Source: Struthio camelus
Taxonomy: Eukaryota; Chordata; Aves; Struthioniformes; Struthionidae
Length of the DNA stretch: 64,000 nt
Assembly: GCF_040807025.1 (NCBI RefSeq)
Contig: NC_090967.1
Span: 1,796,001 to 1,860,000 of the forward strand
Direction of reading: 5' to 3'
Shown here: piece by piece, positions 42,426 through 64,000 of the stretch
Numbering within the stretch: position 1 is the stretch's first letter
Layout: every line of letters starts with the position of its first letter
Position numbers and translations under genes: made by a program
The notes under the pieces: model-generated
What the model was told of the DNA's origin: nothing
What the model saw: the letters and a program-made list of their open reading frames with translations, nothing else
The model's database searches: none

Positions 42426-42830
42426 AGGGCAGTGATACAAGGGACATGATAGGATGCAGGGGACATGGAGGGGGACACAGAGACTAGTAGGGACACAGGG
42501 GGGCACAGGGGACACGAGAGCACATGGAGGCAATGTAGGCACACGGAAGGACATGAGGGGCATGGAGGGATACAGGGGATATGTATGTACAAGGGATACG
42601 GGAGGAAAGCACATGGAGGATATGTAGGGACACAGGATACATGGGAAGACACGGGGGACATGAGAGCGCATGGAAGATATGTAGGGACACAATGTACACA
42701 GGAAGGCATGGGGGACATGGGGGAACATTGAGGCTACGGAGGGATACAAGGGACGTGGGAGGGTGCAGCAGATACTGGGAGACATGGGGCATACACTAAG
42801 ATGGCAATGAGACAACAGGGGGCTATGGGG
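42426..42830. repeat. Purine-rich minisatellite (GGGACACAGGGGACATGG-like)
   Basis: Degenerate repeats of GGGGACACAGA, GGGACACAGGGGGGCACAGG, GGGGACATGGGGGAACATTG and similar, the same motif family and orientation as the tract at 25085-25510. Confidence 0.7.
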
Positions 42831-42834
42831 CAGG

Positions 42835-43220
42835 AGAGGCCATGGTGCAAGAAGGGGTAAGGGGCAGGAATGACTATAACGCAGGAGGGTCAAAGGGGAG
42901 GATGGGGATTATGGTGCAGGAGGAGCTCTGGGGCAGGTGTGGCTGTAGGGCAGCAGAAGTAACTGGGCAGGAGGGGCTATGGGGCAGGAGGTGCAATGGG
43001 ACAGGCCAAAGGTATGGGGCAGGAGGGAGATATAGGGCAGGAGGGTCTATGGGGCAGGGGGGGCAATAGAGCAGAAATGGCTATGAGGCAGGAGTGAGCT
43101 CTAGGGCAGGAGGGGCAGCGGGTCAGGAGAGGCAATGTAGCAGGAGAAGAGAATGGTGCAGGAGAGTTTGTGGTGCAGGAGAAGCTGTGCAGCAGGAGGG
43201 GCTATGGGGCGGGAGATCGG
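42835..43220. repeat. GGGGCAGGAGGGGCTAT-type minisatellite
   Basis: Variants of GGGGCAGGAGGGGCTAT recur about every 17-25 bp with heavy divergence (for example near 42905-42960, 43015-43060 and 43180-43210). Confidence 0.75.
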
Positions 43221-43954: not shown

Positions 43955-46736
43955 AGCTCTAGCCCCTCTCAAATTCCTCTCCTTCTGGAACATACATCAG
44001 GCCTACTCACAGCTTAGTACCACCACTAAAACGGATCCCGCACCAACTAGAGCTCTCATGGAAGACCACTTGAGGTACCAGTATGGCCTATGCATTCTTA
44101 GTGCAGCCCTAGCATAAGTGCCCCTCTCGGCTTCCTCCCCTCCTGCACCCACACCAGGCCTACTCACAGATTACGACCAGCACAGCCACTCTCCTAAAAC
44201 AGCTCATCCACAACCAGGGCTAGCAGGGAAGATGACTTGACGTGCCAGTCTTGCCTATGCAGGCTTACTGCAGCTCCATAAAAAGTGCCCCTCTTGGCTT
44301 CCTCCCTTTCCAGAACCTACACCAGGCCCACTCACAGCTTACAATAAGCAGTGCCCCCTCCCCCCCCGCCGCTAAAACGGCTCTGTCACCAACCAGTGTT
44401 CTTAGAAAAGTGCTCTTCGTACAATTTTGCCATTGCATGCCTAGTGCAGGCCCAGCATGAGTACCCCTCTTGGATTCCTCCCCTTCCAGAACTTACACCA
44501 GGTCTACTCACAGCTTACTACCTTGTGCAAATGGCTCACCAACCTACGTGGTCTTGCATGGAAGAACTCTCGGCAGGACAATTTTGTCTTTGCATGCCTA
44601 GTGCAGCCCCAGCACAAGTGCCAGTCTTGGCTGTCTCCCCTTCCAGAACTTACATCAGGCCTAGTCATAGCTTGTTACTAGCTCTGAAACCCTGCTAAAT
44701 TGGCTCACCCATAAATGAGTATTAACATGGAAGACAATGTTAACATTGGCCCACCAATCCTGGCTATGCATTTCAAGTGTACCCCCACAACAAGTGACCC
44801 TCTTGGCTTCCTGCCTTTCCAGAACTCAGATCAGGCCTACTCACAGCTTACTGCCACCCTGCTAAAATGGCTCATCCACCAACCAGGGCTCACAGGCAAG
44901 ACCTCTTGGCATTCCAGTCTTCTTCTCTTTGCATGCCTAGTACAGCCCCATAGCATGTGCTCCTCTCAGCTTCCTTCCCCGATGAAACCTATACCAGGCC
45001 TACTCAAAGCTTACTATCAGTGCTGCTACCCTGCTAAAATGGCTCACAGACAAGAGCTCTTGGCATGACAATCTTGGCTTTGGCATGCCTAGTGCAGCCC
45101 CAGCACAGGTGCCCTTCCAGAACTTACACCAAGCCTATTCACAGCTTACTACCAGCACTGCCACCGTGCTAAAACTGCTCACCCACCAACCAGTGCTCAA
45201 AGATAGGATCTCTTGCCTCTGCATGCCTAGTGCAGCTCCACAACAAGTGCCCTGCTCAACTTCCTGCCCTTCTGTATCTTACACCAGGCTTACTCACAGC
45301 TTACTACCAGCAGTGCCACACAGATAAAATGGATAACCTACCTACCAGGGCTCAGAAGCAAGAACTCACGGCACAAATCTTGCCTGCACATGCCCAGTGA
45401 AGCCCCACAACATGTGCCCCTCTCGGTTTCTGTAAGGCAGAGGTAATGCCTGGATTCCTGTCAGGGACAGATGCATAAACAAAAGACACGCTGTGGTTGA
45501 TATTGAATGTTTATTATCTCTGCATCTAAGCAGGGGTTCCCCAACAATTTCACGAGCAAGGCAATAATGGAGTGGGAGAGTTCCTGGCACCGCTGAGCGT
45601 CGGTCCATGGTGAGGAATGCTGGTGGTGCGGAGGCATAATATGAGGTTTTTATGGACTACAAGCCTGTGCAGCAAGCATAGTGAGCTCATTGCTAACCTA
45701 CATTTAAAGTCCAGGTAGCATTACACTGCCACAGGCTTGGCTGTGTGACTATGGGTCAGCATGCCCTGTAGGTGCTCCTTTTCCCATGGAACAGTCTGGT
45801 TAGCTTCCATCGCCTATCTCCTCGACATTCTTCCACATTTACCTGTACGGCTTCCTCCCTTTCTGGAACTTACACCAGGCCTATTCACAGCTTACTACCA
45901 GCACTGCCACCCTGCTAAAATGGCTCACCACCAACCAGGACTCACAGACAGGAGCTCTTGTCATGAGAATCTTCTCTTTGCATGCCTGGTGCAGCCCCAG
46001 AAAAAGTACCCCTCTTGGCTTCCTCCCGTTCTGGAACTTGCACCAGGCCTACTCAGTTTACTGCTAGCACTGCCACCCTGTTAAAACTACTCACCCACCA
46101 ACCACTTTGCACAGAGAAGAGCTTATGGTATGCCAGTCTGGCCTTGGCATGCCTAGTGCAGCTCCACAACAAGGGCCCTTCTCGGCTTCCTAACCCTTCC
46201 AGAACTTACACCAGGCCTACTCACAGCTGACTATGAGCAGTGCCTCCCTGCTAAAATGGCTCTGCCACCAACCAGGGCTCACATGGAAGAGCCCATGGCA
46301 TTACAATCTTGCATGTGCATGCCTAGTGCAGCCCCAGCACAAGCACCACTCTTGGCTTTGTTCCTTTCAGGAACACACACCACGCCTACTCACAGCTTAA
46401 TACCAGCAGTGTCATCCTGGTAAGAATGCTCACCCACCAAACAGGGTGCGCAGGGAATATCACTTGACGAACCAGTCTTACCCTTACATGCCTAGTGCAA
46501 CCCTGCATAAAGGGGCACCTCTCAGCTTTCTGCCCTTCCAGAACTTAGACCAGGCCAATTCACAGCTTACTACTGGCAGGGATGCCCTGCTAAAATGACT
46601 TCCCCTCCAACCAGGGCTCATAGGTAAGAGCTCTTAGCCAACCAGTCTTGCCTTTGCATGCCTAATGCAGCCCTAGAAAAAGTGCCCCTCTGAGATTCCT
46701 TGCTTCCAGAAATTTTACCAGGCCTACTCACAGCTT
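43955..46736 (+). repeat. Satellite A, forward arm, first part (about 170-bp period)
   Basis: Tandem diverged units with the phrases CCAGAACTTACACCAGG, CCTACTCACAGCTTACTACC, CTGCTAAAATGGCTCACC, ACCAACCAGGGCTCACAGG and TTTGCATGCCTAGTGCAGCC. The AAAATGGCTC-type anchor recurs near 44024, 44195, 44373, 44694, 44864, 45033, 45170 and 45318. After an insertion it recurs near 45917, 46252 and 46591. Short open frames across it are repeat translations. Confidence 0.88.
45431..45847 (-). mobile_element. LTR-like insertion (417 bp) inside satellite A
   Basis: A non-satellite block interrupts a unit exactly between CTCGGTTTC and CGGCTTCC, so CGG(T/C)TTC is duplicated on both sides as an imperfect target duplication of about 7 bp. 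On the minus strand the block runs TACAGGTAA...CCTTACA. It contains CATAAAAA (complement of 45647-45654) and then AATAAA (complement of 45510-45515), a promoter/poly(A) order expected for a solo LTR of an endogenous retrovirus. No internal region is present. Confidence 0.6.
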
Positions 46737-48403
46737 CCTGAGTGAGGCCAGACCTCGGGTATTCCAGACTCTGGGGGCAAGAGAGAACGTCTGGAGAAAG
46801 GAAGACTCTCCCTTGGTGGAGGAGGATCAGGTTAGAGATCTTTTGTCCAAACTTGACATCCATAAATCCATGGGCCCCGATGGGATGCACCCACGAGTGC
46901 TGAGGGAGCTGGCGGATGTTATCGCTAGGCCACTCTCCATCACCTTGGAAAGGTCCTGGAGATCAGGAGAGGTGCCTGAGGACTGGAAGAAAGCCAATGT
47001 CACCCCAGCCTTCCAAAAGGGCAAGAAGGAGGAGCCAGGAAACTCCAGGCCTGTCAGCCTCCCCTCCTTCCCTGGAAAGGTGATGGAACAGCTCCTCCTG
47101 AAGGTCATCACTAAGCATCTGGAGGACAAGAAGGTGATCAGGAGTAGTCAGCATGGATTCACCAAAGGGAAATCATGCTGGACCAATCGGATAGCCTTCT
47201 GGGAGGGAACGACTGGCTGGGTAGATGAGGGCAGAGCAGTGGATGTGGTCTCCCTGGCCTTCAGCAAGGCTTCCAACACTGTCTCCCATCACATCCTCCT
47301 AGGCAAGCTCAGGAAGTGTGGGTTGGATGAGTGGTTGGCGAGGTGGATTGAGAAGTGGCAGGATGGCCAAGCTCAGAGGGTGGTGATCAAGTGCCACCAA
47401 GTCTGGTTGGAAGCGTGTAGCTAGCGGTGTGCCCCAGGGGTCAGTCCTGGGTCCAGTCTTGTTCAATGTATTTATCGATGACCTGGAGGAAGGGACAGAG
47501 TGCACCCTCAGCAAGTTTGCTGATGATACGAAAGTGGGGGGAGAGGCTGACACACCAGAAGGCTATGCTGCCATTCAGAGGGACCTGGACAGGCTGGAGA
47601 GATGGGTGGAGAGGAACCTCATGAAGTTCAACAAAGGCAAGTGCAGGGTCCTGCCCCTAGGGAGGAAGAACCCCCTGCAGCAGTACAGGCTGGGGGTTGA
47701 CCTGCTGGAAAGCAGCCCTGCAGAGAAGGAGCTGGGAGTGCTGGTGGACAACAAGTTAAACATGAGGCAGCAGTGTGCCCTGGTGGCCAAGAAGGCCAAT
47801 GGTCTCCTGGGGTGCATGAGGCAGAGTGTTGCCAGCAGGTGTAGGGAGGTGATCCTGCCCCTCCCCTCAGCCCTGGTGAGGCCTCACCTGGAGTACTGTG
47901 TCCACTTCTGGGCTCCCCAGTACAAGAGAGACATGGCACTCCTGGAGAGAGTCCAGCGGAGGGCTACCAAGATGATTAGAGGGCTGGAGCACCTCTCCTA
48001 GGAAGAAAGACTGCGCGAGCTGGGCCTGTTCAGCCTGGAGAAGAGAAGATTGAGAGGCGATCTCATAAATGTGTACAAGTATCTGAAGGGGGAGTGTCAA
48101 GAGGATGAGGCCAGTCTCTTCTCCGTGATGCCCAGCCACAGGACAAGAGGCAATGGGCACAAACTGAACCACAGGAAGTTCCACCTAAACCTGAGCAAAA
48201 ACTTCTTTACTGTGAGGGTGACAGAGCATTGGAACAGGTTGCCCAGAGAGGTAGTGGAGTCTCCTTCGCTGGAGATATTCAAAACCCATCTGGATGTGAT
48301 CCTGGGCAATATGCTCTAGAAGTCCCTGCTTGAGCAGGGAGGTTGGACTAGATGCTCTCCAGAGGTCCCTTCCAACCTAAACCATTCTGTGATTCTGTGA
48401 TTC
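46737..48403 (+). mobile_element. 5'-truncated CR1 LINE inserted in satellite A
   Basis: The insertion starts within ORF2 and ends with the CR1 3' terminus, CCATTCTGTGATTCTGTGATTC. Satellite A stops at CACAGCTT before it and resumes at CTACCAGCA after it. The element carries the reverse-transcriptase region and C-terminal part of ORF2 in broken form. It is in the same orientation as the CR1 at the right edge of the window. Confidence 0.95.
46813..48319 (+). pseudogene. CR1 ORF2 reverse-transcriptase fragment, frameshifted
   Basis: The first frame (46813-47424) includes GPDGMHPRVLRELADV and GFTKGKSCWTN-type RT motifs. The next frame (47429-48001) includes [20 protein letters not shown] and the catalytic-type [10 protein letters not shown] +1 frame change lies near 47405-47430, and an in-frame TAG at 47999-48001 interrupts the C-terminal domain, which then continues to 48319. 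This is a dead copy of a non-LTR retrotransposon polymerase. Confidence 0.93.
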
Positions 48404-48821
48404 CTACCAGCAATGCCACCCTGCTAAAATGGTTCAGCCACCAACCAGGGCTCACAGAGAAGAGCACTTTGCCTGCCAGTCTTCTCCTTGTGCAGCCTCA
48501 GAACAAGCAACCCTCTCGGCTTCCTCCCCATCCTGAACTCACACCAGGCCTACTCACAGCTTACTACCAGCACTGCCACCCTGATTAAAAGGATCACCCA
48601 CCAACCGCTGCATGCAGGGAAGAGCTCCTGGCACCACCATCTTCACTGTGAATGCCCTGTGCAGCCCCACAAAGCCCATCCCTCTCAGGTTCGTCACCTT
48701 CCAGAACTTTACATCAGGTCTACTCACACCTTACTACCAAAACCATCACCCTACTTAAACAGCTAAGCCCACCAATCAGGACTCACAGACAAGAGTGCTT
48801 GGCCCACCAGCATTGCCTATT
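48404..48821 (+). repeat. Satellite A, forward arm, last part
   Basis: Two to three more diverged units (CTGCTAAAATGGTTCAGCC at 48420, CACACCAGGCCTACTCACAG near 48540, AAACAGCTAAGCCCACC near 48757). The satellite ends abruptly at CATTGCCTAT where satellite B begins. Confidence 0.85.
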
Positions 48822-48891
48822 GCTGGGAAGTTCTAGCTAGGTGGGGCTGCTGCTAACGAGCTCTCTGGGCTGCCCTGGTCAGAGGGAGTTA

Positions 48892-48915
48892 GGAGCCACC
48901 TGAAACAATAGCCCC
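48892..48915 (-). repeat. 24-bp micro-inversion in monomer 1
   Basis: All other monomers read GGGGCTTTTGTTTCAGG followed by TGGCTCC between GGGAGTT and the ATTGGGTGGG block. Monomer 1 has GGAGCCACCTGAAACAATAG followed by CCCC, which is the reverse complement with one mismatch. The flanks on both sides stay in the normal orientation. Confidence 0.85.
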
Positions 48916-50272
48916 GCTTGGGTGGGTCAAGCACCCTTGTGAGTCACTGCTAGGCAGAGGCCTAAATAAGAGCCAGGCCTAGAGCGCAGCTCCCAGAGCG
49001 CAGCCAACAGAGGCAGCAGTTTGCGCAGCAGTGTCTGGGCTCTGCCTGGGCCTTTTGTGGGCCTTTTGTGGGCCTTGTTGGAAGTTGTGGAGACTTTGTG
49101 GGGACCCCCGAGGAACTAGACGGTGCTTGCTGCTAGCAGGAAGGGAGAGCTGGGCAAGGACTCCTGCAGGGGACCTTGACTTAACTTCTGCTGGGAAGTT
49201 CTAGCTAGGTGGGGCTGCTGCTAACGAGCTCTCTGGGCTGCCCTGGTCAGAGGGAGTTGGGGCTTTTGTTTCAGGTGGCTCCTGATTGGGTGGGTCAAGC
49301 ACCCTTGTGAGTCACTGCTAGGCAGAGGCCTATATAAGAGCCAGGCCTAGAGCGCAGCTCCCAGAGCGCAGCCAACAGAGGCAGCAGTTTGCGCAGCAGT
49401 GTCTGGGCTCTGCCTGGGCCTTTTGTGGGCCTTTTGTGGGCCTTGTTGGAAGTTGTGGAGACTTTGTGGGGACCCCCGAGGAACTAGACGGTGCTTGCTG
49501 CTAGCAGGAAGGGAGAGCTGGGCAAGGACTCCTGCAGGGGACCTTGACTTAACTTCTGCTGGGAAGTTCTAGCTAGGTGGGGCTGCTGCTAACGAGCTCT
49601 CTGGGCTGCCCTGGTCAGAGGGAGTTGGGGCTTTTGTTTCAGGTGGCTCCTGATTGGGTGGGTCAAGCACCCTTGTGAGTCACTGCTAGGCAGAGGCCTA
49701 TATAAGAGCCAGGCCTAGAGCGCAGCCAACAGAGGCAGCCAACAGAGGCAGCAGTTTGTGCAGCAGTGTCTGGGCTCTGCCTGGGCCTTTTGTGGGCCTT
49801 GTTGGAAGTTGTGGAGACTTTGTGGGGACCCCCGAGGAACTAGACGGTGCTTGCTGCTAGCAGGAAGGGAGAGCTGGGCAAGGACTCCTGCAGGGGACCT
49901 TGACTTAACTTCTGCTGGGAAGTTCTAGCTAGGTGGGGCTGCTGCTAACGAGCTCTCTGGGCTGCCCTGGTCAGAGGGAGTTGGGGCTTTTGTTTCAGGT
50001 GGCTCCTGATTGGGTGGGTCAAGCACCCTTGTGAGTCACTGCTAGGCAGAGGCCTATATAAGAGCCAGGCCTAGAGCGCAGCCAACAGAGGCAGCCAACA
50101 GAGGCAGCAGTTTGCGCAGCAGTGTCTGGGCTCTGCCTGGGCCTTTTGTGGGCCTTGTTGGAAGTTGTGGAGACTTTGTGGGGACCCCCGAGGAACTAGA
50201 TGGTGCTTGCTGCTAGCAGGAAGGGAGAGCTGGGCAAGGACTCCTGCAGGGGACCTTGACTTAACTTCTCCT

Positions 50273-51774
50273 GGGAAGTTCTAGCTAGGTGGGGCTGCTG
50301 CTAACGAGCTCTCTGGGCTGCCCTGGTCAGAGGGAGTTGGGGCTTTTGTTTCAGGTGGCTCCTGATTGGGTGGGTCAAGCACCCTTGTGAGTCACTGCTA
50401 GGCAGAGGCCTATATAAGAGCCAGGCCTAGAGCGCAGCTCCCAGAGCGCAGCCAACAGAGGCAGCGAACAGAGGCAGCAGTTTGCGCAGCAGTGTCTGGG
50501 CTCTGCCTGGGCCTTTTGTGGGCCTTTTGTGGGCCTTGTTGGAAGTTGTGGAGACTTTGTGGGGACCCCCGAGGAACTAGACGGTGCTTGCTGCTAGCAG
50601 GAAGGGAGAGCTGGGCAAGGACTCCTGCAGGGGACCTTGACTTAACTTCTGCTGGGAAGTTCTAGCTAGGTGGGGCTGCTGCTAACGAGCTCTCTGGGCT
50701 GCCCTGGTCAGAGGGAGTTGGGGCTTTTGTTTCAGGTGGCTCCTGATTGGGTGGGTCAAGCACCCTTGTGAGTCACTGCTAGGCAGAGGCCTATATAAGA
50801 GCCAGGCCTAGAGCGCAGCTCCCAGAGCGCAGCCAACAGAGGCAGCGAACAGAGGCAGCAGTTTGCGCAGCAGTGTCTGGGCTCTGCCTGGGCCTTTTGT
50901 GGGCCTTGTTGGAAGTTGTGGAGACTTTGTGGGGACCCCCGAGGAACTAGACGGTGCTTGCTGCTAGCAGGAAGGGAGAGCTGGGCAAGGACTCCTGCAG
51001 GGGACCTTGACTTAACTTCTCCTGGGAAGTTCTAGCTAGGTGGGGCTGCTGCTAACGAGCTCTCTGGGCTGCCCTGGTCAGAGGGAGTTGGGGCTTTTGT
51101 TTCAGGTGGCTCCTGATTGGGTGGGTCAAGCACCCTTGTGAGTCACTGCTAGGCAGAGGCCTATATAAGAGCCAGGCCTAGAGCGCAGCTCCCAGAGCGC
51201 AGCCAACAGAGGCAGCGAACAGAGGCAGCAGTTTGCGCAGCAGTGTCTGGGCTCTGCCTGGGCCTTTTGTGGGCCTTTTGTGGGCCTTGTTGGAAGTTGT
51301 GGAGACTTTGTGGGGACCCCCGAGGAACTAGACGGTGCTTGCTGCTAGCAGGAAGGGAGAGCTGGGCAAGGACTCCTGCAGGGGACCTTGACTTAACTTC
51401 TCCTGGGAAGTTCTAGCTAGGTGGGGCTGCTGCTAACGAGCTCTCTGGGCTGCCCTGGTCAGAGGGAGTTGGGGCTTTTGTTTCAGGTGGCTCCTGATTG
51501 GGTGGGTCAAGCACCCTTGTGAGTCACTGCTAGGCAGAGGCCTATATAAGAGCCAGGCCTAGAGCGCAGCTCCCAGAGCGCAGCCAACAGAGGCAGCGAA
51601 CAGAGGCAGCAGTTTGCGCAGCAGTGTCTGGGCTCTGCCTGGGCCTTTTGTGGGCCTTGTTGGAAGTTGTGGAGACTTTGTGGGGACCCCCGAGGAACTA
51701 GACGGTGCTTGCTGCTAGCAGGAAGGGAGAGCTGGGCAAGGACTCCTGCAGGGGACCTTGACTTAACTTCTGCT
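50273..51774 (+). repeat. Tandem duplicated dimer of monomers (2 x 751 bp)
   Basis: Monomer lengths run 381, 370, 381, 370. The module pattern alternates in step: both types have the 14-bp block and the GAACAGAGGCAGC copy, with two and then one CCTTTTGTGGG. Confidence 0.8.
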
Positions 51775-52142
51775 GGGAAGTTCTAGCTAGGTGGGGCTGC
51801 TGCTAACGAGCTCTCTGGGCTGCCCTGGTCAGAGGGAGTTGGGGCTTTTGTTTCAGGTGGCTCCTGATTGGGTGGGTCAAGCACCCTTGTGAGTCACTGC
51901 TAGGCAGAGGCCTATATAAGAGCCAGGCCTAGAGCGCAGCTCCCAGAGCGCAGCCAACAGAGGCAGCAGTTTGCGCAGCAGTGTCTGGGCTCTGCCTGGG
52001 CCTTTTGTGGGCCTTTTGTGGGCCTTGTTGGAAGTTGTGGAGACTTTGTGGGGACCCCCGAGGAACTAGACGGTGCTTGCTGCTAGCAGGAAGGGAGAGC
52101 TGGGCAAGGACTCCTGCAGGGGACCTTGACTTAACTTCTGCT

Positions 52143-55100
52143 GGGAAGTTCTAGCTAGGTGGGGCTGCTGCTAACGAGCTCTCTGGGCTGCCCTGGTCAG
52201 AGGGAGTTGGGGCTTTTGTTTCAGGTGGCTCCTGATTGGGTGGGTCAAGCACCCTTGTGAGTCACTGCTAGGCAGAGGCCTATATAAGAGCCAGGCCTAG
52301 AGCGCAGCTCCCAGAGCGCAGCCAACAGAGGCAGCAGTTTGCGCAGCAGTGTCTGGGCTCTGCCTGGGCCTTTTGTGGGCCTTGTTGGAAGTTGTGGAGA
52401 CTTTGTGGGGACCCCCGAGGAACTAGACGGTGCTTGCTGCTAGCAGGAAGGGAGAGCTGGGCAAGGACTCCTGCAGGGGACCTTGACTTAACTTCTGCTG
52501 GGAAGTTCTAGCTAGGTGGGGCTGCTGCTAACGAGCTCTCTGGGCTGCCCTGGTCAGAGGGAGTTGGGGCTTTTGTTTCAGGTGGCTCCTGATTGGGTGG
52601 GTCAAGCACCCTTGTGAGTCACTGCTAGGCAGAGGCCTATATAAGAGCCAGGCCTAGAGTGCAGCCAACAGAGGCAGCGAACAGAGGCAGCAGTTTGCGC
52701 AGCAGTGTCTGGGCTCTGCCTGGGCCTTTTGTGGGCCTTTTGTGGGCCTTGTTGGAAGTTGTGGAGACTTTGTGGGGACCCCCGAGGAACTAGACGGTGC
52801 TTGCTGCTAGCAGGAAGGGAGAGCTGGGCAAGGACTCCTGCAGGGGACCTTGACTTCACTTCTGCTGGGAAGTTCTAGCTAGGTGGGGCTGCTGCTAACG
52901 AGCTCTCTGGGCTGCCCTGGTCAGAGGGAGTTGGGGCTTTTGTTTCAGGTGGCTCCTGATTGGGTGGGTCAAGCACCCTTGTGAGTCACTGCTAGGCAGA
53001 GGCCTATATAAGAGCCAGGCCTAGAGCGCAGCCAACAGAGGCAGCCAACAGAGGCAGCAGTTTGCGCAGCAGTGTCTGGGCTCTGCCTGGGCCTTTTGTG
53101 GGCCTTTTGTGGGCCTTGTTGGAAGTTGTGGAGACTTTGTGGGGACCCCCGAGGAACTAGACGGTGCTTGCTGCTAGCAGGAAGGGAGAGCTGGGCAAGG
53201 ACTCCTGCAGGGGACCTTGACTTAACTTCTGCTGGGAAGTTCTAGCTAGGTGGGGCTGCTGCTAACGAGCTCTCTGGGCTGCCCTGGTCAGAGGGAGTTG
53301 GGGCTTTTGTTTCAGGTGGCTCCTGATTGGGTGGGTCAAGCACCCTTGTGAGTCACTGCTAGGCAGAGGCCTATATAAGAGCCAGGCCTAGAGCGCAGCC
53401 AACAGAGGCAGCAGTTTGCGCAGCAGTGTCTGGGCTCTGCCTGGGCCTTTTGTGGGCCTTTTGTGGGCCTTGTTGGAAGTTGTGGAGACTTTGTGGGGAC
53501 CCCCGAGGAACTAGACGGTGCTTGCTGCTAGCAGGAAGGGAGAGCTGGGCAAGGACTCCTGCAGGGGACCTTGACTTAACTTCTGCTGGGAAGTTCTAGC
53601 TAGGTGGGGCTGCTGCTAACGAGCTCTCTGGGCTGCCCTGGTCAGAGGGAGTTGGGGCTTTTGTTTCAGGTGGCTCCTGATTGGGTGGGTCAAGCACCCT
53701 TGTGAGTCACTGCTAGGCAGAGGCCTATATAAGAGCCAGGCCTAGAGCGCAGCCAACAGAGGCAGCCAACAGAGGCAGCAGTTTGCGCAGCAGTGTCTGG
53801 GCTCTGCCTGGGCCTTTTGTGGGCCTTTTGTGGGCCTTGTTGGAAGTTGTGGAGACTTTGTGGGGACCCCCGAGGAACTAGACGGTGCTTGCTGCTAGCA
53901 GGAAGGGAGAGCTGGGCAAGGACTCCTGCAGGGGACCTTGACTTAACTTCTGCTGGGAAGTTCTAGCTAGGTGGGGCTGCTGCTAACGAGCTCTCTGGGC
54001 TGCCCTGGTCAGAGGGAGTTGGGGCTTTTGTTTCAGGTGGCTCCTGATTGGGTGGGTCAAGCACCCTTGTGAGTCACTGCTAGGCAGAGGCCTATATAAG
54101 AGCCAGGCCTAGAGCGCAGCTCCCAGAGCGCAGCCAACAGAGGCAGCAGTTTGCGCAGCAGTGTCTGGGCTCTGCCTGGGCCTTTTGTGGGCCTTTTGTG
54201 GGCCTTGTTGGAAGTTGTGGAGACTTTGTGGGGACCCCCGAGGAACTAGACGGTGCTTGCTGCTAGCAGGAAGGGAGAGCTGGGCAAGGACTCCTGCAGG
54301 GGACCTTGACTTAACTTCTGCTGGGAAGTTCTAGCTAGGTGGGGCTGCTGCTAACGAGCTCTCTGGGCTGCCCTGGTCAGAGGGAGTTGGGGCTTTTGTT
54401 TCAGGTGGCTCCTGATTGGGTGGGTCAAGCACCCTTGTGAGTCACTGCTAGGCAGAGGCCTATATAAGAGCCAGGCCTAGAGCGCAGCCAACAGAGGCAG
54501 CAGTTTGCGCAGCAGTGTCTGGGCTCTGCCTGGGCCTTTTGTGGGCCTTTTGTGGGCCTTGTTGGAAGTTGTGGAGACTTTGTGGGGACCCCCGAGGAAC
54601 TAGACGGTGCTTGCTGCTAGCAGGAAGGGAGAGCTGGGCAAGGACTCCTGCAGGGGACCTTGACTTAACTTCTGCTGGGAAGTTCTAGCTAGGTGGGGCT
54701 GCTGCTAACGAGCTCTCTGGGCTGCCCTGGTCAGAGGGAGTTGGGGCTTTTGTTTCAGGTGGCTCCTGATTGGGTGGGTCAAGCACCCTTGTGAGTCACT
54801 GCTAGGCAGAGGCCTATATAAGAGCCAGGCCTAGAGTGCAGCCAACAGAGGCAGCGAACAGAGGCAGCAGTTTGCGCAGCAGTGTCTGGGCTCTGCCTGG
54901 GCCTTTTGTGGGCCTTTTGTGGGCCTTGTTGGAAGTTGTGGAGACTTTGTGGGGACCCCCGAGGAACTAGACGGTGCTTGCTGCTAGCAGGAAGGGAGAG
55001 CTGGGCAAGGACTCCTGCAGGGGACCTTGACTTAACTTCTGCTGGGAAGTTCTAGCTAGGTGGGGCTGCTGCTAACGAGCTCTCTGGGCTGCCCTGGTCA

Positions 55101-56514
55101 GAGGGAGTTGGGGCTTTTGTTTCAGGTGGCTCCTGATTGGGTGGGTCAAGCACCCTTGTGAGTCACTGCTAGGCAGAGGCCTATATAAGAGCCAGGCCTA
55201 GAGCGCAGCTCCCAGAGCGCAGCCAACAGAGGCAGCAGTTTGCGCAGCAGTGTCTGGGCTCTGCCTGGGCCTTTTGTGGGCCTTTTGTGGGCCTTGTTGG
55301 AAGTTGTGGAGACTTTGTGGGGACCCCCGAGGAACTAGACGGTGCTTGCTGCTAGCAGGAAGGGAGAGCTGGGCAAGGACTCCTGCAGGGGACCTTGACT
55401 TAACTTCTGCTGGGAAGTTCTAGCTAGGTGGGGCTGCTGCTAACGAGCTCTCTGGGCTGCCCTGGTCAGAGGGAGTTGGGGCTTTTGTTTCAGGTGGCTC
55501 CTGATTGGGTGGGTCAAGCACCCTTGTGAGTCACTGCTAGGCAGAGGCCTATATAAGAGCCAGGCCTAGAGTGCAGCCAACAGAGGCAGCCAACAGAGGC
55601 AGCAGTTTGTGCAGCAGTGTCTGGGCTCTGCCTGGGCCTTTTGTGGGCCTTTTGTGGGCCTTGTTGGAAGTTGTGGAGACTTTGTGGGGACCCCCGAGGA
55701 ACTAGACGGTGCTTGCTGCTAGCAGGAAGGGAGAGCTGGGCAAGGACTCCTGCAGGGGACCTTGACTTAACTTCTGCTGGGAAGTTCTAGCTAGGTGGGG
55801 CTGCTGCTAACGAGCTCTCTGGGCTGCCCTGGTCAGAGGGAGTTGGGGCTTTTGTTTCAGGTGGCTCCTGATTGGGTGGGTCAAGCACCCTTGTGAGTCA
55901 CTGCTAGGCAGAGGCCTATATAAGAGCCAGGCCTAGAGCGCAGCTCCCAGAGCGCAGCCAACAGAGGCAGCAGTTTGTGCGGCAGTGTCTGGGCTCTGCC
56001 TGGGCCTTTTGTGGGCCTTTTGTGGGCCTTGTTGGAAGTTGTGGAGACTTTGTGGGGACCCCCGAGGAACTAGACGGTGCTTGCTGCTAGCAGGAAGGGA
56101 GAGCTGGGCAAGGACTCCTGCAGGGGACCTTGACTTAACTTCTGCTGGGAAGTTCTAGCTAGGTGGGGCTGCTGCTAACGAGCTCTCTGGGCTGCCCTGG
56201 TCAGAGGGAGTTGGGGCTTTTGTTTCAGGTGGCTCCTGATTGGGTGGGTCAAGCACCCTTGTGAGTCACTGCTAGGCAGAGGCCTATATAAGAGCCAGGC
56301 CTAGAGCGCAGCTCCCAGAGCGCAGCCAACAGAGGCAGCAGTTTGCGCAGCAGTGTCTGGGCTCTGCCTGGGCCTTTTGTGGGCCTTTTGTGGGCCTTGT
56401 TGGAAGTTGTGGAGACTTTGTGGGGACCCCCGAGGAACTAGACGGTGCTTGCTGCTAGCAGGAAGGGAGAGCTGGGCAAGGACTCCTGCAGGGGACCTTG
56501 ACTTAACTTCTGCT
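52143..56514 (+). repeat. Higher-order repeat copy 1 (12 monomers, 4,372 bp)
   Basis: Monomer lengths: 357, 367, 367, 354, 367, 368, 354, 367, 368, 367, 368, 368. Private variants include CTTGACTTCACTT near 52850, GAGTGCAGCC near 52658, 54835 and 55570, and GTTTGTGCGGCAG near 55976. The same order recurs in the next block. Confidence 0.9.
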
Positions 56515-59500
56515 GGGAAGTTCTAGCTAGGTGGGGCTGCTGCTAACGAGCTCTCTGGGCTGCCCTGGTCAGAGGGAGTTGGGGCTTTTGTTTCAGGTGG
56601 CTCCTGATTGGGTGGGTCAAGCACCCTTGTGAGTCACTGCTAGGCAGAGGCCTATATAAGAGCCAGGCCTAGAGCGCAGCTCCCAGAGCGCAGCCAACAG
56701 AGGCAGCAGTTTGCGCAGCAGTGTCTGGGCTCTGCCTGGGCCTTTTGTGGGCCTTGTTGGAAGTTGTGGAGACTTTGTGGGGACCCCCGAGGAACTAGAC
56801 GGTGCTTGCTGCTAGCAGGAAGGGAGAGCTGGGCAAGGACTCCTGCAGGGGACCTTGACTTAACTTCTGCTGGGAAGTTCTAGCTAGGTGGGGCTGCTGC
56901 TAACGAGCTCTCTGGGCTGCCCTGGTCAGAGGGAGTTGGGGCTTTTGTTTCAGGTGGCTCCTGATTGGGTGGGTCAAGCACCCTTGTGAGTCACTGCTAG
57001 GCAGAGGCCTATATAAGAGCCAGGCCTAGAGCGCAGCTCCCAGAGCGCAGCCAACAGAGGCAGCGAACAGAGGCAGCAGTTTGCGCAGCAGTGTCTGGGC
57101 TCTGCCTGGGCCTTTTGTGGGCCTTGTTGGAAGTTGTGGAGACTTTGTGGGGACCCCCGAGGAACTAGACGGTGCTTGCTGCTAGCAGGAAGGGAGAGCT
57201 GGGCAAGGACTCCTGCAGGGGACCTTGACTTCACTTCTGCTGGGAAGTTCTAGCTAGGTGGGGCTGCTGCTAACGAGCTCTCTGGGCTGCCCTGGTCAGA
57301 GGGAGTTGGGGCTTTTGTTTCAGGTGGCTCCTGATTGGGTGGGTCAAGCACCCTTGTGAGTCACTGCTAGGCAGAGGCCTATATAAGAGCCAGGCCTAGA
57401 GCGCAGCCAACAGAGGCAGCCAACAGAGGCAGCAGTTTGCGCAGCAGTGTCTGGGCTCTGCCTGGGCCTTTTGTGGGCCTTTTGTGGGCCTTGTTGGAAG
57501 TTGTGGAGACTTTGTGGGGACCCCCGAGGAACTAGACGGTGCTTGCTGCTAGCAGGAAGGGAGAGCTGGGCAAGGACTCCTGCAGGGGACCTTGACTTAA
57601 CTTCTGCTGGGAAGTTCTAGCTAGGTGGGGCTGCTGCTAACGAGCTCTCTGGGCTGCCCTGGTCAGAGGGAGTTGGGGCTTTTGTTTCAGGTGGCTCCTG
57701 ATTGGGTGGGTCAAGCACCCTTGTGAGTCACTGCTAGGCAGAGGCCTATATAAGAGCCAGGCCTAGAGCGCAGCCAACAGAGGCAGCAGTTTGCGCAGCA
57801 GTGTCTGGGCTCTGCCTGGGCCTTTTGTGGGCCTTTTGTGGGCCTTGTTGGAAGTTGTGGAGACTTTGTGGGGACCCCCGAGGAACTAGACGGTGCTTGC
57901 TGCTAGCAGGAAGGGAGAGCTGGGCAAGGACTCCTGCAGGGGACCTTGACTTAACTTCTGCTGGGAAGTTCTAGCTAGGTGGGGCTGCTGCTAACGAGCT
58001 CTCTGGGCTGCCCTGGTCAGAGGGAGTTGGGGCTTTTGTTTCAGGTGGCTCCTGATTGGGTGGGTCAAGCACCCTTGTGAGTCACTGCTAGGCAGAGGCC
58101 TATATAAGAGCCAGGCCTAGAGCGCAGCCAACAGAGGCAGCCAACAGAGGCAGCAGTTTGCGCAGCAGTGTCTGGGCTCTGCCTGGGCCTTTTGTGGGCC
58201 TTTTGTGGGCCTTGTTGGAAGTTGTGGAGACTTTGTGGGGACCCCCGAGGAACTAGACGGTGCTTGCTGCTAGCAGGAAGGGAGAGCTGGGCAAGGACTC
58301 CTGCAGGGGACCTTGACTTAACTTCTGCTGGGAAGTTCTAGCTAGGTGGGGCTGCTGCTAACGAGCTCTCTGGGCTGCCCTGGTCAGAGGGAGTTGGGGC
58401 TTTTGTTTCAGGTGGCTCCTGATTGGGTGGGTCAAGCACCCTTGTGAGTCACTGCTAGGCAGAGGCCTATATAAGAGCCAGGCCTAGAGCGCAGCTCCCA
58501 GAGCGCAGCCAACAGAGGCAGCAGTTTGCGCAGCAGTGTCTGGGCTCTGCCTGGGCCTTTTGTGGGCCTTTTGTGGGCCTTGTTGGAAGTTGTGGAGACT
58601 TTGTGGGGACCCCCGAGGAACTAGACGGTGCTTGCTGCTAGCAGGAAGGGAGAGCTGGGCAAGGACTCCTGCAGGGGACCTTGACTTAACTTCTGCTGGG
58701 AAGTTCTAGCTAGGTGGGGCTGCTGCTAACGAGCTCTCTGGGCTGCCCTGGTCAGAGGGAGTTGGGGCTTTTGTTTCAGGTGGCTCCTGATTGGGTGGGT
58801 CAAGCACCCTTGTGAGTCACTGCTAGGCAGAGGCCTATATAAGAGCCAGGCCTAGAGCGCAGCCAACAGAGGCAGCAGTTTGCGCAGCAGTGTCTGGGCT
58901 CTGCCTGGGCCTTTTGTGGGCCTTTTGTGGGCCTTGTTGGAAGTTGTGGAGACTTTGTGGGGACCCCCGAGGAACTAGACGGTGCTTGCTGCTAGCAGGA
59001 AGGGAGAGCTGGGCAAGGACTCCTGCAGGGGACCTTGACTTAACTTCTGCTGGGAAGTTCTAGCTAGGTGGGGCTGCTGCTAACGAGCTCTCTGGGCTGC
59101 CCTGGTCAGAGGGAGTTGGGGCTTTTGTTTCAGGTGGCTCCTGATTGGGTGGGTCAAGCACCCTTGTGAGTCACTGCTAGGCAGAGGCCTATATAAGAGC
59201 CAGGCCTAGAGTGCAGCCAACAGAGGCAGCGAACAGAGGCAGCAGTTTGCGCAGCAGTGTCTGGGCTCTGCCTGGGCCTTTTGTGGGCCTTTTGTGGGCC
59301 TTGTTGGAAGTTGTGGAGACTTTGTGGGGACCCCCGAGGAACTAGACGGTGCTTGCTGCTAGCAGGAAGGGAGAGCTGGGCAAGGACTCCTGCAGGGGAC
59401 CTTGACTTAACTTCTGCTGGGAAGTTCTAGCTAGGTGGGGCTGCTGCTAACGAGCTCTCTGGGCTGCCCTGGTCAGAGGGAGTTGGGGCTTTTGTTTCAG

Positions 59501-60889
59501 GTGGCTCCTGATTGGGTGGGTCAAGCACCCTTGTGAGTCACTGCTAGGCAGAGGCCTATATAAGAGCCAGGCCTAGAGCGCAGCTCCCAGAGCGCAGCCA
59601 ACAGAGGCAGCAGTTTGCGCAGCAGTGTCTGGGCTCTGCCTGGGCCTTTTGTGGGCCTTTTGTGGGCCTTGTTGGAAGTTGTGGAGACTTTGTGGGGACC
59701 CCCGAGGAACTAGACGGTGCTTGCTGCTAGCAGGAAGGGAGAGCTGGGCAAGGACTCCTGCAGGGGACCTTGACTTAACTTCTGCTGGGAAGTTCTAGCT
59801 AGGTGGGGCTGCTGCTAACGAGCTCTCTGGGCTGCCCTGGTCAGAGGGAGTTGGGGCTTTTGTTTCAGGTGGCTCCTGATTGGGTGGGTCAAGCACCCTT
59901 GTGAGTCACTGCTAGGCAGAGGCCTATATAAGAGCCAGGCCTAGAGTGCAGCCAACAGAGGCAGCCAACAGAGGCAGCAGTTTGTGCAGCAGTGTCTGGG
60001 CTCTGCCTGGGCCTTTTGTGGGCCTTTTGTGGGCCTTGTTGGAAGTTGTGGAGACTTTGTGGGGACCCCCGAGGAACTAGACGGTGCTTGCTGCTAGCAG
60101 GAAGGGAGAGCTGGGCAAGGACTCCTGCAGGGGACCTTGACTTAACTTCTGCTGGGAAGTTCTAGCTAGGTGGGGCTGCTGCTAACGAGCTCTCTGGGCT
60201 GCCCTGGTCAGAGGGAGTTGGGGCTTTTGTTTCAGGTGGCTCCTGATTGGGTGGGTCAAGCACCCTTGTGAGTCACTGCTAGGCAGAGGCCTATATAAGA
60301 GCCAGGCCTAGAGCGCAGCTCCCAGAGCGCAGCCAACAGAGGCAGCAGTTTGTGCGGCAGTGTCTGGGCTCTGCCTGGGCCTTTTGTGGGCCTTTTGTGG
60401 GCCTTGTTGGAAGTTGTGGAGACTTTGTGGGGACCCCCGAGGAACTAGACGGTGCTTGCTGCTAGCAGGAAGGGAGAGCTGGGCAAGGACTCCTGCAGGG
60501 GACCTTGACTTAACTTCTGCTGGGAAGTTCTAGCTAGGTGGGGCTGCTGCTAACGAGCTCTCTGGGCTGCCCTGGTCAGAGGGAGTTGGGGCTTTTGTTT
60601 CAGGTGGCTCCTGATTGGGTGGGTCAAGCACCCTTGTGAGTCACTGCTAGGCAGAGGCCTATATAAGAGCCAGGCCTAGAGCGCAGCTCCCAGAGCGCAG
60701 CCAACAGAGGCAGCAGTTTGCGCAGCAGTGTCTGGGCTCTGCCTGGGCCTTTTGTGGGCCTTTTGTGGGCCTTGTTGGAAGTTGTGGAGACTTTGTGGGG
60801 ACCCCCGAGGAACTAGACGGTGCTTGCTGCTAGCAGGAAGGGAGAGCTGGGCAAGGACTCCTGCAGGGGACCTTGACTTAACTTCTGCT
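56515..60889 (+). repeat. Higher-order repeat copy 2 (12 monomers, 4,375 bp)
   Basis: Monomer lengths: 357, 370, 367, 354, 367, 368, 354, 367, 368, 367, 368, 368. CTTGACTTCACTT recurs near 57225 and GTTTGTGCGGCAG near 60351, each 4,375 bp after its counterpart. Eleven of twelve monomers match their partner in module type. The second monomer (56872-57241) differs in module content but keeps the private TTCACTT variant. Confidence 0.9.
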
Positions 60890-61614
60890 GGGAAGTTCTA
60901 GCTAGGTGGGGCTGCTGCTAACGAGCTCTCTGGGCTGCCCTGGTCAGAGGGAGTTGGGGCTTTTGTTTCAGGTGGCTCCTGATTGGGTGGGTCAAGCACC
61001 CTTGTGAGTCACTGCTAGGCAGAGGCCTATATAAGAGCCAGGCCTAGAGTGCAGCTCCCAGAGCGCAGCCAACAGAGGCAGCAGTTTGCGCAGCAGTGTC
61101 TGGGCTCTGCCTGGGCCTTTTGTGGGCCTTGTTGGAAGTTGTGGAGACTTTGTGGGGACCCCCGAGGAACTAGACGGTGCTTGCTGCTAGCAGGAAGGGA
61201 GAGCTGGGCAAGGACTCCTGCAGGGGACCTTGACTTAACTTCTCCTGGGAAGTTCTAGCTAGGTGGGGCTGCTGCTAACGAGCTCTCTGGGCTGCCCTGG
61301 TCAGAGGGAGTTGGGGCTTTTGTTTCAGGTGGCTCCTGATTGGGTGGGTCAAGCACCCTTGTGAGTCACTGCTAGGCAGAGGCCTATATAAGAGCCAGGC
61401 CTAGAGCGCAGCTCCCAGAGCGCAGCCAACAGAGGCAGCAGTTTGCGCAGCAGTGTCTGGGCTCTGCCTGGGCCTTTTGTGGGCCTTTTGTGGGCCTTGT
61501 TGGAAGTTGTGGAGACTTTGTGGGGACCCCCGAGGAACTAGACGGTGCTTGCTGCTAGCAGGAAGGGAGAGCTGGGCAAGGACTCCTGCAGGGGACCTTG
61601 ACTTAACTTCTGCT

Positions 61615-61902
61615 GGGAAGTTCTAGCTAGGTGGGGCTGCTGCTAACGAGCTCTCTGGGCTGCCCTGGTCAGAGGGAGTTGGGGCTTTTGTTTCAGGTGG
61701 CTCCTGATTGGGTGGGTCAAGCACCCTTGTGAGTCACTGCTAGGCAGAGGCCTATATAAGAGCCAGGCCCAGAGCGCAGCCAACAGAGGCAGCGAACAGA
61801 CGCAGCAGTTTGTGCAGCAGTTTGCGCAGAAGGGCCCCAGAAGGCAAACAGGCACCTCTCCATTTTGTACATTTTGCACTGTGGTGTGTCCTTCCCCGGG
61901 GC
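61615..61902 (+). promoter_or_regulatory. Terminal monomer as candidate CR1 promoter and leader
   Basis: The last monomer carries ATTGG at 61707-61711, TGAGTCA at 61730-61736 and TATATAAG at 61753-61760. A start site would be expected around 61784, in AGCCAACAGAGG, giving a leader of about 120 bp to the ATG at 61903. The monomer stops matching the array after CAGCAGTTTGTGCAGCAG near 61826. Promoter function is inferred from motif order and position only. Confidence 0.6.
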
Positions 61903-62971
61903 ATGGTGATGATACGCCGCAGAGCACGTTCCCCAGTAGCTGCTGAATGTGCTGCATTGGCTGTCTGAGGACTCAACCCAGGCAGACCCTCTGACAGCAG
62001 ATGCAGCTCTGCAGGTGTCAGGCTGCAGGGAGTGTCTGGGGCCTCTGTTTGAGGCCTTGGCCGACAGTCAGCTCTCCTGTGTGAGGTGTGCTGTGGTTGA
62101 CCAGTTGCCTCACCAGATAAAGGAGTTACGGGAGGAGGTTAGTAGACTGCGTAGCATCTGAGAGGATGAGCGGGAGATTGACAGGGCGTTTTCAGATACT
62201 GTTCAGCTCCGGGAGTCCCCACCCCCCACTGCAGCGGAGTTGTCAGAGGGCTCAGCACCGTGTGTAAAGGTGCATCATAACGCTGTTGAAGAGGGCTGGA
62301 AGCTGGTGACCTCTCGCAGAAGGAGAAAGGCTCTTGCTCCTCCTCAAGACTTACCCTTGAAGAACAAGTTTAGCGCCCTCCAAGCCGAGGAGGAGCTGGG
62401 CATGGCTCCAAGGGAGGCAACTGGCCTGGCAGACCCTGTGCTGTGCAGGAACCCCCAGAAGAAGCAGCGAGTGATTGTTGTGGGTGACTGCCTGCTGCAG
62501 GGGACAGAGGCACCTATCTGCCGACCTGACCTCTTGCCCAGAGAGGTTTGCTGCCTGCCAGGGGCTCGAATAAGGGATGTCGTGAAAAGACTGCCAAGGC
62601 TTGTCCACGCGTCGGACTACTACCCTCTGCTGATCTTCCATGTGGGTGCTAATGACACGAAAGGCAAACTGGAAACCATCAAACAGGACTTCACCACCAT
62701 TCCCAGAGCTCTGAAGGATCTGGGAGCCCAGGTGGTGTTCTCCTCAATCTTGCCTGTGAGGGGAAAGGATGGGAGGAGGGGTAGACGCATTTTCCAAGTT
62801 AACAACTGGCTGCACCACTGGTGTTGTCAACAGGGCTTTGGTTTCTATGACCATGGGACGCTGTTTGAAGATCAACAGCTGATGGGGAGTGATGGGATCC
62901 ACCTTACCAAGCGGGGCACGTGTGTCTTTGCCAACAGTTTGGCCAGCCTGGTACGGAGGGCTTTAAACTAG
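61903..62971 (+). pseudogene. CR1 ORF1: zinc finger plus SGNH-type esterase
   Basis: ORF1 of CR1 elements encodes an RNP component with a zinc-binding region and an esterase domain. From the ATG at 61903 a short frame (MVMIRRRARSPVAAECAALA) ends near 61970, and coding resumes in another frame, implying a frame change. The second frame has a C-x2-C ... C-x2-C pattern (GCREC and SCVRC) and a coiled segment EELREEVSRLRSI-like, then TGA at 62159-62161, then stays open to 62971. In the last part VVGDCLLQGTEAPIC, FHVGANDTKG and GSDGIHLT are SGNH-hydrolase blocks I, III and V. The nucleophile position of block I is Cys (codon 62489-62491) instead of the expected Ser. No in-frame ATG precedes the zinc finger in its own frame, and a TAG lies at 61937. 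Confidence 0.88.
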
Positions 62972-63072
62972 GCAAGATGGGGGAAGGGGAGTGGTATAGT
63001 GGCAGGGGAGTCAGTAAAACACCGCTCAAGTCAGGATGCCTCCAGCGGGTGCATACAACCAGGGGAGACAGC

Positions 63073-64000
63073 ATGGGACATGGCTATGGAGGCTCCTCTT
63101 GCACCTGTTCTGGGAAGCCTGCATGCTTGACTGGCTCTCTGAAATGCCTGTATACCAATGCACGCAGCATGGGGAATAAACAGGAAGAGTTAGAGATCTG
63201 TGTGCAGTTGCAGGGCCATGATCTCATTGCAGTTACAGAGACATGGTGGGATAGTTCACATGACTGGGATGCTGTCAGGGATGGCTATGTGCTTTTTAGG
63301 CAAGACAGGCCAGGAAGGCGAGGTGGTGGAGTTGCCCTTTATGTGAGGGAGCAACTAGAATGTATGGAGCTCTGCCTCGGGGTGGATGAAGAGCAAGTTG
63401 AGAGCCTATGGGTAAGGATTAAAGGGCAGGCTAACATGGGTGACACTGTTGTGGGGGTCTACTACAGGCCACCTGACCAGGAGGAAGTCGTCGATGAGGC
63501 CTTCTACTGACAGCTGGAAGTAGCCTCACGCTCACAGGCCCTGGTTCTCATGGGAGACTTCAACCACCCTGACATCTGTTGGGAAGACAGCACAGCTAGG
63601 CACAAACAGTCAAAGAGGTTCCTGCAGAGCATTGATGATAATTTCTTGACCCAGGTGGTGGAGACGCCAACGAGGAGAGGTGCAATGCTAGACCTTGTAC
63701 TAACGAACAAAGAAGGTCTAGTTGGAGATGTGAAGGTTGGGGGCAGCCTTGGCTGCAGTGACCATGAGATGGTGGAGTTCAGGACCCTATGAGGAGGGAG
63801 CAGGGCAATGAGTAGGATTGCAACCCTGGACTTCAGGAGAGCTGACTTTGGCCTCTTGAGGGACCTACTTAGGGGAATCTCATGGGGTAGGGCCCTAGAA
63901 GGAAGAGGGGTCCAGGAAAGCTGGTTAATATTCAAGCATCACCTCCTCCAGGCTCAAGACGGGTGCATCCCTCTGAGTAAGAAGTCGAGCAAAGCGGGCA
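63073..64000 (+). pseudogene. CR1 ORF2, APE-type endonuclease domain (partial)
   Basis: ORF2 encodes the endonuclease and reverse transcriptase that carry out target-primed reverse transcription. The visible part has the endonuclease motifs in order: [72 protein letters not shown] and [13 protein letters not shown] codons at 63508-63510 and 63790-63792 interrupt one continuous frame. The ATG at 63073 is chosen as a plausible start; the frame is open from 62920 and overlaps the end of ORF1. The reverse transcriptase lies outside the window. Confidence 0.9.

Follow-up and report, generated by a model that had tools for sequence, protein, structure and literature searches.

LINE PROMOTERS AND THE LOCUS IN STRUTHIO CAMELUS

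A long interspersed nuclear element (LINE) whose RNA starts downstream of the promoter must somehow retain that promoter, a puzzle that has been studied mainly in rodent L1. The same question is raised by a locus in the genome of Struthio camelus, where an element of the CR1 type, a main LINE of birds, follows a long tandem array of promoter-like units. The locus lies in a stretch of 64,000 nucleotides (NCBI RefSeq assembly GCF_040807025.1, contig NC_090967.1, positions 1,796,001 to 1,860,000 of the forward strand), hereafter the window, in whose coordinates positions are given unless stated otherwise. The original prediction, made from the letters of the window, proposed either a LINE promoter expanded into a satellite or a satellite captured as a LINE promoter. 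Our analysis favors the former: with good confidence, the array represents the promoter region of a CR1 family, built of tandem TATA-type monomers at any of which RNA could start.

The array and its junction with CR1

Tandem Repeats Finder reported one array (48821-61821; period 368, 35.6 copies, 96% matches). An anchor scan resolved it into 36 tandem units of ~368 bp at 48821-61829 (13,009 bp), confirming the predicted number at the CR1 5' end. The units comprise 18 distinct sequences, and complete units measure 354-381 bp. An extended inverted CCAAT motif was exact in 35 of the 36 units, TATATAA was found in 35 and TGAGTCA in all 36. The claim that every unit carries an inverted CCAAT, TGAGTCA and a TATA box hence holds for 35 units and fails for the first one, which lacks the CCAAT motif and reads TAAATAA. 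At the other end, the 36th unit is cut behind its leader, where CR1 takes over, as had been proposed, and the first ATG lies 74 bp into the CR1 part, at 61903, close to the ~76 bp expected for the start of the first open reading frame (ORF1).

Written as letters, the unit types follow the order ABCDEFEGBHIJKJBKLBMNBHOJKJBKLBMNBPQR. A stretch of 3,943 bp is present twice, letter for letter, with a shift of 12 units (Table 1), indicating that the array either grew in place very recently or was homogenized; it is best read as partly grown in place. The left junction was unique to the window among the best 40 of 1084 candidates.

The monomer precedes many other CR1 copies

We searched the window's own genome (1.45-Gb assembly). 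Since only top-scoring candidates were scored, the counts from these candidates represent lower bounds. A 31-base pattern of the promoter core (TGAGTCA to TATA), allowing at most 2 mismatches, gave 927 matches genome-wide versus 0 for the reversed control. A 27-base pattern of the promoter, required to be exact, was absent from prokaryotic and viral contigs (0 matches in each), as expected given that these sets hold prokaryotes and viruses.

With the junction as query, 39 of the best 40 of 1355 candidates were other places (88-92% identity), and 30 of these 39 were fetched. Seventeen of the 30 begin near (C)AGAGCGCAGCC, just after the place expected for the TATA box, with unrelated DNA before them and no promoter; most lie within ~12 bp of (C)AGAGCGCAGCC, and L014 begins one short repeat earlier (L and C numbers are our designations for loci and contigs). 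Nine others start at this point in the preceding unit, so that they carry one promoter; among them, L036 starts ~10 bp inside. The remaining four (L020, L021, L024, and L026) are cut elsewhere in the unit and keep part or all of the promoter. The 30 include two duplicate pairs, L017/L018 (identical over 7,365 bp) and L025/L034 (99.7% over 1,500 bp including flank). Because the junction recurs at many loci, a single chance adjacency or an assembly join is ruled out, and the possibility raised with the original prediction, that the monomer might never occur beside another CR1, clearly does not apply.

The monomer itself was then used as query, and the best 38 of 1225 candidates were scored (at least 170 matches; the window itself was absent from this listing). 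Among the arrays fetched, L048 (C2) has 16 complete, letter-identical units plus the last one; L049 (C20), L050 (C13), L052 (C10), and L053 (C40) have 7, 6, 4, and 3 complete units plus the last one, respectively. One 370-bp unit is unchanged at four unlinked loci (L048, L049, L050, and L053), which points to a family that moved recently.

CR1 adjoined the monomers at 24 of the 25 places checked among these 38 (8 arrays that were read, 11 places identified by the junction table and 5 of the six with an unusual end described below). Eight distinct fetched arrays and 11 further places run into a CR1 5' end. Six places with an unusual end of the last monomer were also fetched: in L054, L056, L057, and L059 the monomers are fused to an internal CR1 segment, and in L058 to CR1 in inverted pieces. 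In L055 a 47-bp inverted CR1 piece immediately precedes the monomers, which begin at the start point, and no CR1 was found downstream. No free satellite, that is, an array independent of a mobile element, was found at the 25 places. These data bear on the second proposal, in which CR1 captured a pre-existing satellite as its promoter and the window holds the donor satellite beside a CR1. The 36 near-identical units and the exact internal duplication are indeed satellite-like, the check covers 25 of the 38 places, and at one of these, L055, no CR1 was found after the monomers. Nevertheless, CR1 adjoins nearly all places checked, and the array ends fall at the start point that other CR1 copies use. 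The captured satellite, without support at the places checked, is in our view very improbable, and an expanded LINE promoter explains the array best. This proposal of the original prediction is not only supported but also extends to other loci, as the monomer precedes many other CR1s and ends at a common start point.

Three side observations concern the distribution of these copies. L017 (C41) and L018 (C40) represent one CR1 insertion with its flanks, located 18.25 and 18.24 Mb from the ends of these large contigs, respectively, an arrangement suggestive of sex chromosomes that have a large region in common. Together with recent CR1 activity, it would fit a palaeognath such as a kiwi. On C40, equal-scoring monomer matches in opposite orientation were seen at 12455898 (+) and 12574115 (-) and at 9796298 (-) and 9806253 (+), perhaps reflecting inverted duplications. 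Finally, the interval 83.9-88.9 Mb of C1 is a hot spot that holds 23 of the 60 listed exact-core loci of this contig, including several near-identical short arrays.

Outermost monomers mostly end at a common point

To locate the outermost ends, we used a query made of the recent-type promoter, the leader and the CR1 start, scored the best 40 of 1611 candidates and read off where each copy ends. In 32 of these 40 recent-type junctions, the outermost end fell at unit positions 171-194. Four near-identical neighbors on C1 were collapsed as presumed duplicates, their flanks not being compared, which left 37 junctions. Of these, 29 end at 171-194 (26 of them at 175-187), 2 at 1-170 and 6 elsewhere or undetected, ends beyond position ~195 being hard to detect by this junction method. 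The chance expectation is 6.5% (24 of 370 positions), giving a binomial P of 8e-28 for 29 of 37. As the TATA box begins at unit position 144, ends at 175-179 lie 31-35 bp downstream of it, which is near the usual spacing between a TATA box and its start site. Most outermost monomers are cut at a common, probable start site, as for a promoter of the mouse L1 type, and since the ends pile up at one spot, each unit is probably a promoter with a fixed start.

The same pile-up could arise from a reverse-transcription stop or from a sequence within the GC-rich leader at which joining is favored. Consistent with this, the ends lie in a region of short repeats (AGAGCGCAGC, CAGAGGCAGC) and scatter over ~12-20 bp. 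On the other hand, the ends lie 31-35 bp from a TATA box that does not vary among 25 distinct units, and the copies examined have unrelated flanks before their ends. We therefore consider a stop or joining site unlikely and an RNA start the better explanation of the pile-up.

Unit numbers

The first 100 listed core matches, all exact and all on C1, correspond to 60 loci. Forty-nine of these have one unit and six have three, while two, four, five, at least six, and sixteen units were each found once. Similarly, 25 of the 40 recent-type junctions have one unit, with a tail up to 17. The 36 units of the window thus form the longest array seen among the loci examined. The long tail of these counts suggests a separate amplification process.

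Conservation and ATG content of the units

We compared 25 distinct complete units (16 types of the window and 9 others, units 1 and 36 being excluded) and found no substitution at positions 99-165, which include TGAGTCA and the TATA box. In single copies, this region of the last promoter is variable, for example in the TATA box of L019. The two main unit types contain no ATG, and the recent type also lacks AATAAA and ATTAAA. There is one ATG in the 13,009 bp of the window's array and none in 6 of 7 other arrays tested. Of 10 other copies, 8 have a long frame that starts at the first ATG downstream of the leader and stays open through the piece examined (87 to 209 codons); in L009 and L023 this frame is broken. 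Because the unit types examined are mostly free of ATG, the ATG of ORF1 would come first in the RNA.

Several observations weigh against an array of promoters with one fixed start and an ATG-free leader. Eight of the 40 recent-type junctions end away from the start point, the window's array starts at unit position 1-2, and that of L052 at 339. The start letters follow only ~20 bp after the TATA box in short-type units, to which the window's last one belongs. Furthermore, the array of L051 has 2 ATGs, and the absence of ATG from one unit is not significant, being met in 19-20% of dinucleotide shuffles. Taken as proof of selection, it is weak for this very reason, and we regard the scarcity of ATG in the units as suggestive only.

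The CR1 of the window and the age of its array

The element behind the array has the hallmarks of CR1: a GDSL-type ORF1, an ORF2 with endonuclease and reverse transcriptase matches, and short 3' repeats. An ORF1 with a GDSL/SGNH hydrolase-like domain is typical of CR1, and a GDSL hydrolase is not known as a feature of L1. The reverse transcriptase match (RVT_1) has an E value of 1e-28, and the endonuclease match lies 0.1 bit below the Pfam cutoff (Table 1). The 3' end, read from L029, consists of ATTCTGTG repeated 7 times with a spacing of 15 bp (65983-66080 in window coordinates). CR1 typically ends in short repeats of the ATTCTRTG type; the repeat at ~1980-2085 of L029, past the window, has a 15-bp period (GTGATTCTGTGAGTG), unlike this usual 8-bp repeat.

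In-frame stops interrupt both ORFs, and a short deletion near 61961 distinguishes this copy from the 20 copies compared. The window's CR1 is therefore dead as a coding element, and its broken frames rule it out as an active one.

Table 1. Features of the array and its CR1 in window coordinates
Feature	Position	Strand	Basis
Promoter-monomer array, 36 units, the last cut after its leader	48821..61829	+	Tandem Repeats Finder and anchor scan
Unit 1: CCAAT lost through an inversion of ~25 bp, TAAATAA in place of TATATAA; begins at unit position 1-2 instead of the start site	48820..49187	+	Sequence
3,943-bp stretch, copied letter for letter at 57107-61049 (12-unit shift)	52732..56674	+	Sequence
Identical second copy of the 3,943-bp stretch	57107..61049	+	Sequence
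ATTGG, inverted CCAAT of the last unit, putative site	61707..61711	+	Sequence; function inferred
TGAGTCA of the last unit, putative AP-1-like site	61730..61736	+	Sequence; function inferred
TATATAA of the last unit, putative TATA box	61753..61759	+	Sequence; function inferred
Last unit: probable start site (~61773, AGAGCGCAGCC) and leader; point at which other CR1 copies begin	61773..61829	+	Comparison of copies
CR1 body, running on to ~66085 beyond the window (L029); frames broken	61830..64000	+	Sequence comparison
First ATG past the leader, where ORF1 starts in other copies; frame broken here	61903..61905	+	Sequence
Remaining open part of ORF1; GDSL-type hydrolase match PF13472, E 6.9e-8	62162..62971	+	Pfam
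Open stretch, start of ORF2; endonuclease match Exo_endo_phos, E 2.8e-5, 24.4 bits vs cutoff 24.5	62893..63510	+	Pfam

The array could be newer than the CR1 it precedes if an old element had acquired it by recombining with another copy. Compared with the majority of other copies, the window differs at 4 of 220 positions in promoter and leader and at 20 of 250 in the CR1 body (Fisher P 0.003). The corresponding values for 18 other copies, pooled without five broken ones (L054-L058), are 1.9% and 2.6%. In addition, the majority sequence of the window's monomers differs from that of other loci at 3 of 357 aligned positions. However, promoter and leader of the window are ordinary compared to other copies (P 1.0), the unusual part being the body (P 3e-5), so that a divergent CR1 subfamily would explain the age step equally well; moreover, the divergence is uneven along the body. 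We consider a newer array quite possible, albeit not the expected case. It would add to, and is compatible with, the reading of the array as a LINE promoter.

The surroundings of the array offer some further observations. A diverged tandem repeat of ~170 bp occupies 43964-48820 and breaks off sharply at the left edge of the monomer array; in L029, no matches to this repeat were found downstream of the 3' end of the window's CR1. The ~170-bp repeat is interrupted at 46745-48400 by a 5'-truncated CR1 that is 94% like the window's CR1. Both elements read CTCCTAGGA at the corresponding place (47995-48003 in the window and ~1586-1594 in L029) and hence share an in-frame TAG, which may reflect either a common source or a relic of duplication. 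Further upstream, at 42819-43215, lies a G-rich minisatellite with 17-bp units in ~23 copies.

Comparison with known promoter arrays

The closest system is mouse L1 (A, Tf, and Gf), in which tandem promoter monomers are likewise found at the 5' end in numbers that vary between copies. According to passages of PMC6454616, the site at which the outermost monomer is cut has been used there as evidence for the start site, and promoters are said to be maintained through duplication of monomers, the mechanism being unclear. Young mouse subfamilies average 3-4 monomers, with more than 10 at seven loci, as stated in a portion of PMC9022269. The two systems differ in that mouse L1 belongs to the L1 and not the CR1 clade and has a unit of ~200 bp compared to 370 bp here, where the array has 36 units. 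Furthermore, the word TATA is absent from the main text of PMC6454616 and PMC9022269, and here a TATA box lies upstream of the probable start. By analogy, the array would work like the stacked-monomer design known from mouse L1, here in another LINE clade.

Chicken CR1-B and CR1-F resemble the present elements in being CR1 LINEs whose 5' region acts as a promoter and is missing from most copies, as described in parts of PMC2734521. The same parts give a 5' untranslated region (UTR) of ~240 bp with E boxes for CR1-B, and a CR1-F region unrelated to it; both are unlike the 5' region found here. They also place a 32-bp direct repeat in the 5' region of turtle and pufferfish CR1, and contain no mention of a monomer array for the chicken 5' regions. 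In the bird CR1 survey PMC8665684, the words promoter, UTR, and monomer do not occur in the main text; a recent expansion of CR1-Y in kiwi is reported in a section of this survey.

A search of the open-licence literature, covering titles and the beginnings of abstracts, yielded no paper on a CR1 promoter built as a monomer array, which is weak evidence of absence. The original prediction had called the locus a novel LINE-satellite coupling. This is too strong, as the coupling recurs at many similar loci and its logic is known from mouse L1.

In Drosophila, telomeric elements of the HeT-A type have a promoter outside their own RNA, which is supplied by the 3' end of the upstream neighbor. Unlike in this arrangement, the putative promoter found here is a 5' monomer of the same element. 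The array is similar to satellite DNA in its near-identical tandem units and higher-order repetition, and differs from it in that its units are joined to a mobile element at almost every place checked.

How a tandem-monomer promoter might be kept

We propose that each monomer acts as an RNA polymerase II promoter, with CCAAT, the AP-1-like TGAGTCA and the TATA box as putative factor sites and with one preferred start, mostly 31-35 bp past the TATA box, followed by a leader that is largely free of ATG. RNA started from the last monomer would contain no promoter, because the TATA box lies outside of it, and would give rise to a silent copy. RNA started k positions further up would carry the intervening promoters and hand on k of them, so that the unit count of a copy would record the start position used in its parent. 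Since promoters would be lost in retrotransposition, they would have to be regained by growth of the array, presumably through unequal exchange or a similar amplification. The window would then represent the longest array seen, recently amplified in place before a coding-dead CR1.

This proposal can be taken one step further, to a promoter ratchet. As the TATA box lies outside the RNA it drives, every round of retrotransposition would spend at least one unit, and the number of units would be a countable reserve of generations. A lineage would persist only if exchange restored its array, and long arrays before coding-dead CR1s could serve as promoter banks that re-arm other copies by recombination. 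We regard this extension as speculative and rather doubtful.

If the array is a tandem-monomer promoter, CR1 would have the same solution for keeping a promoter as rodent L1, now with a TATA box and a sharp probable start. Owing to these two features, a genome assembly could reveal which promoter each parent RNA had used. One insertion can carry many promoter-like units to a chromosome, and the gain and loss of LINE promoters would become countable in an independent lineage.

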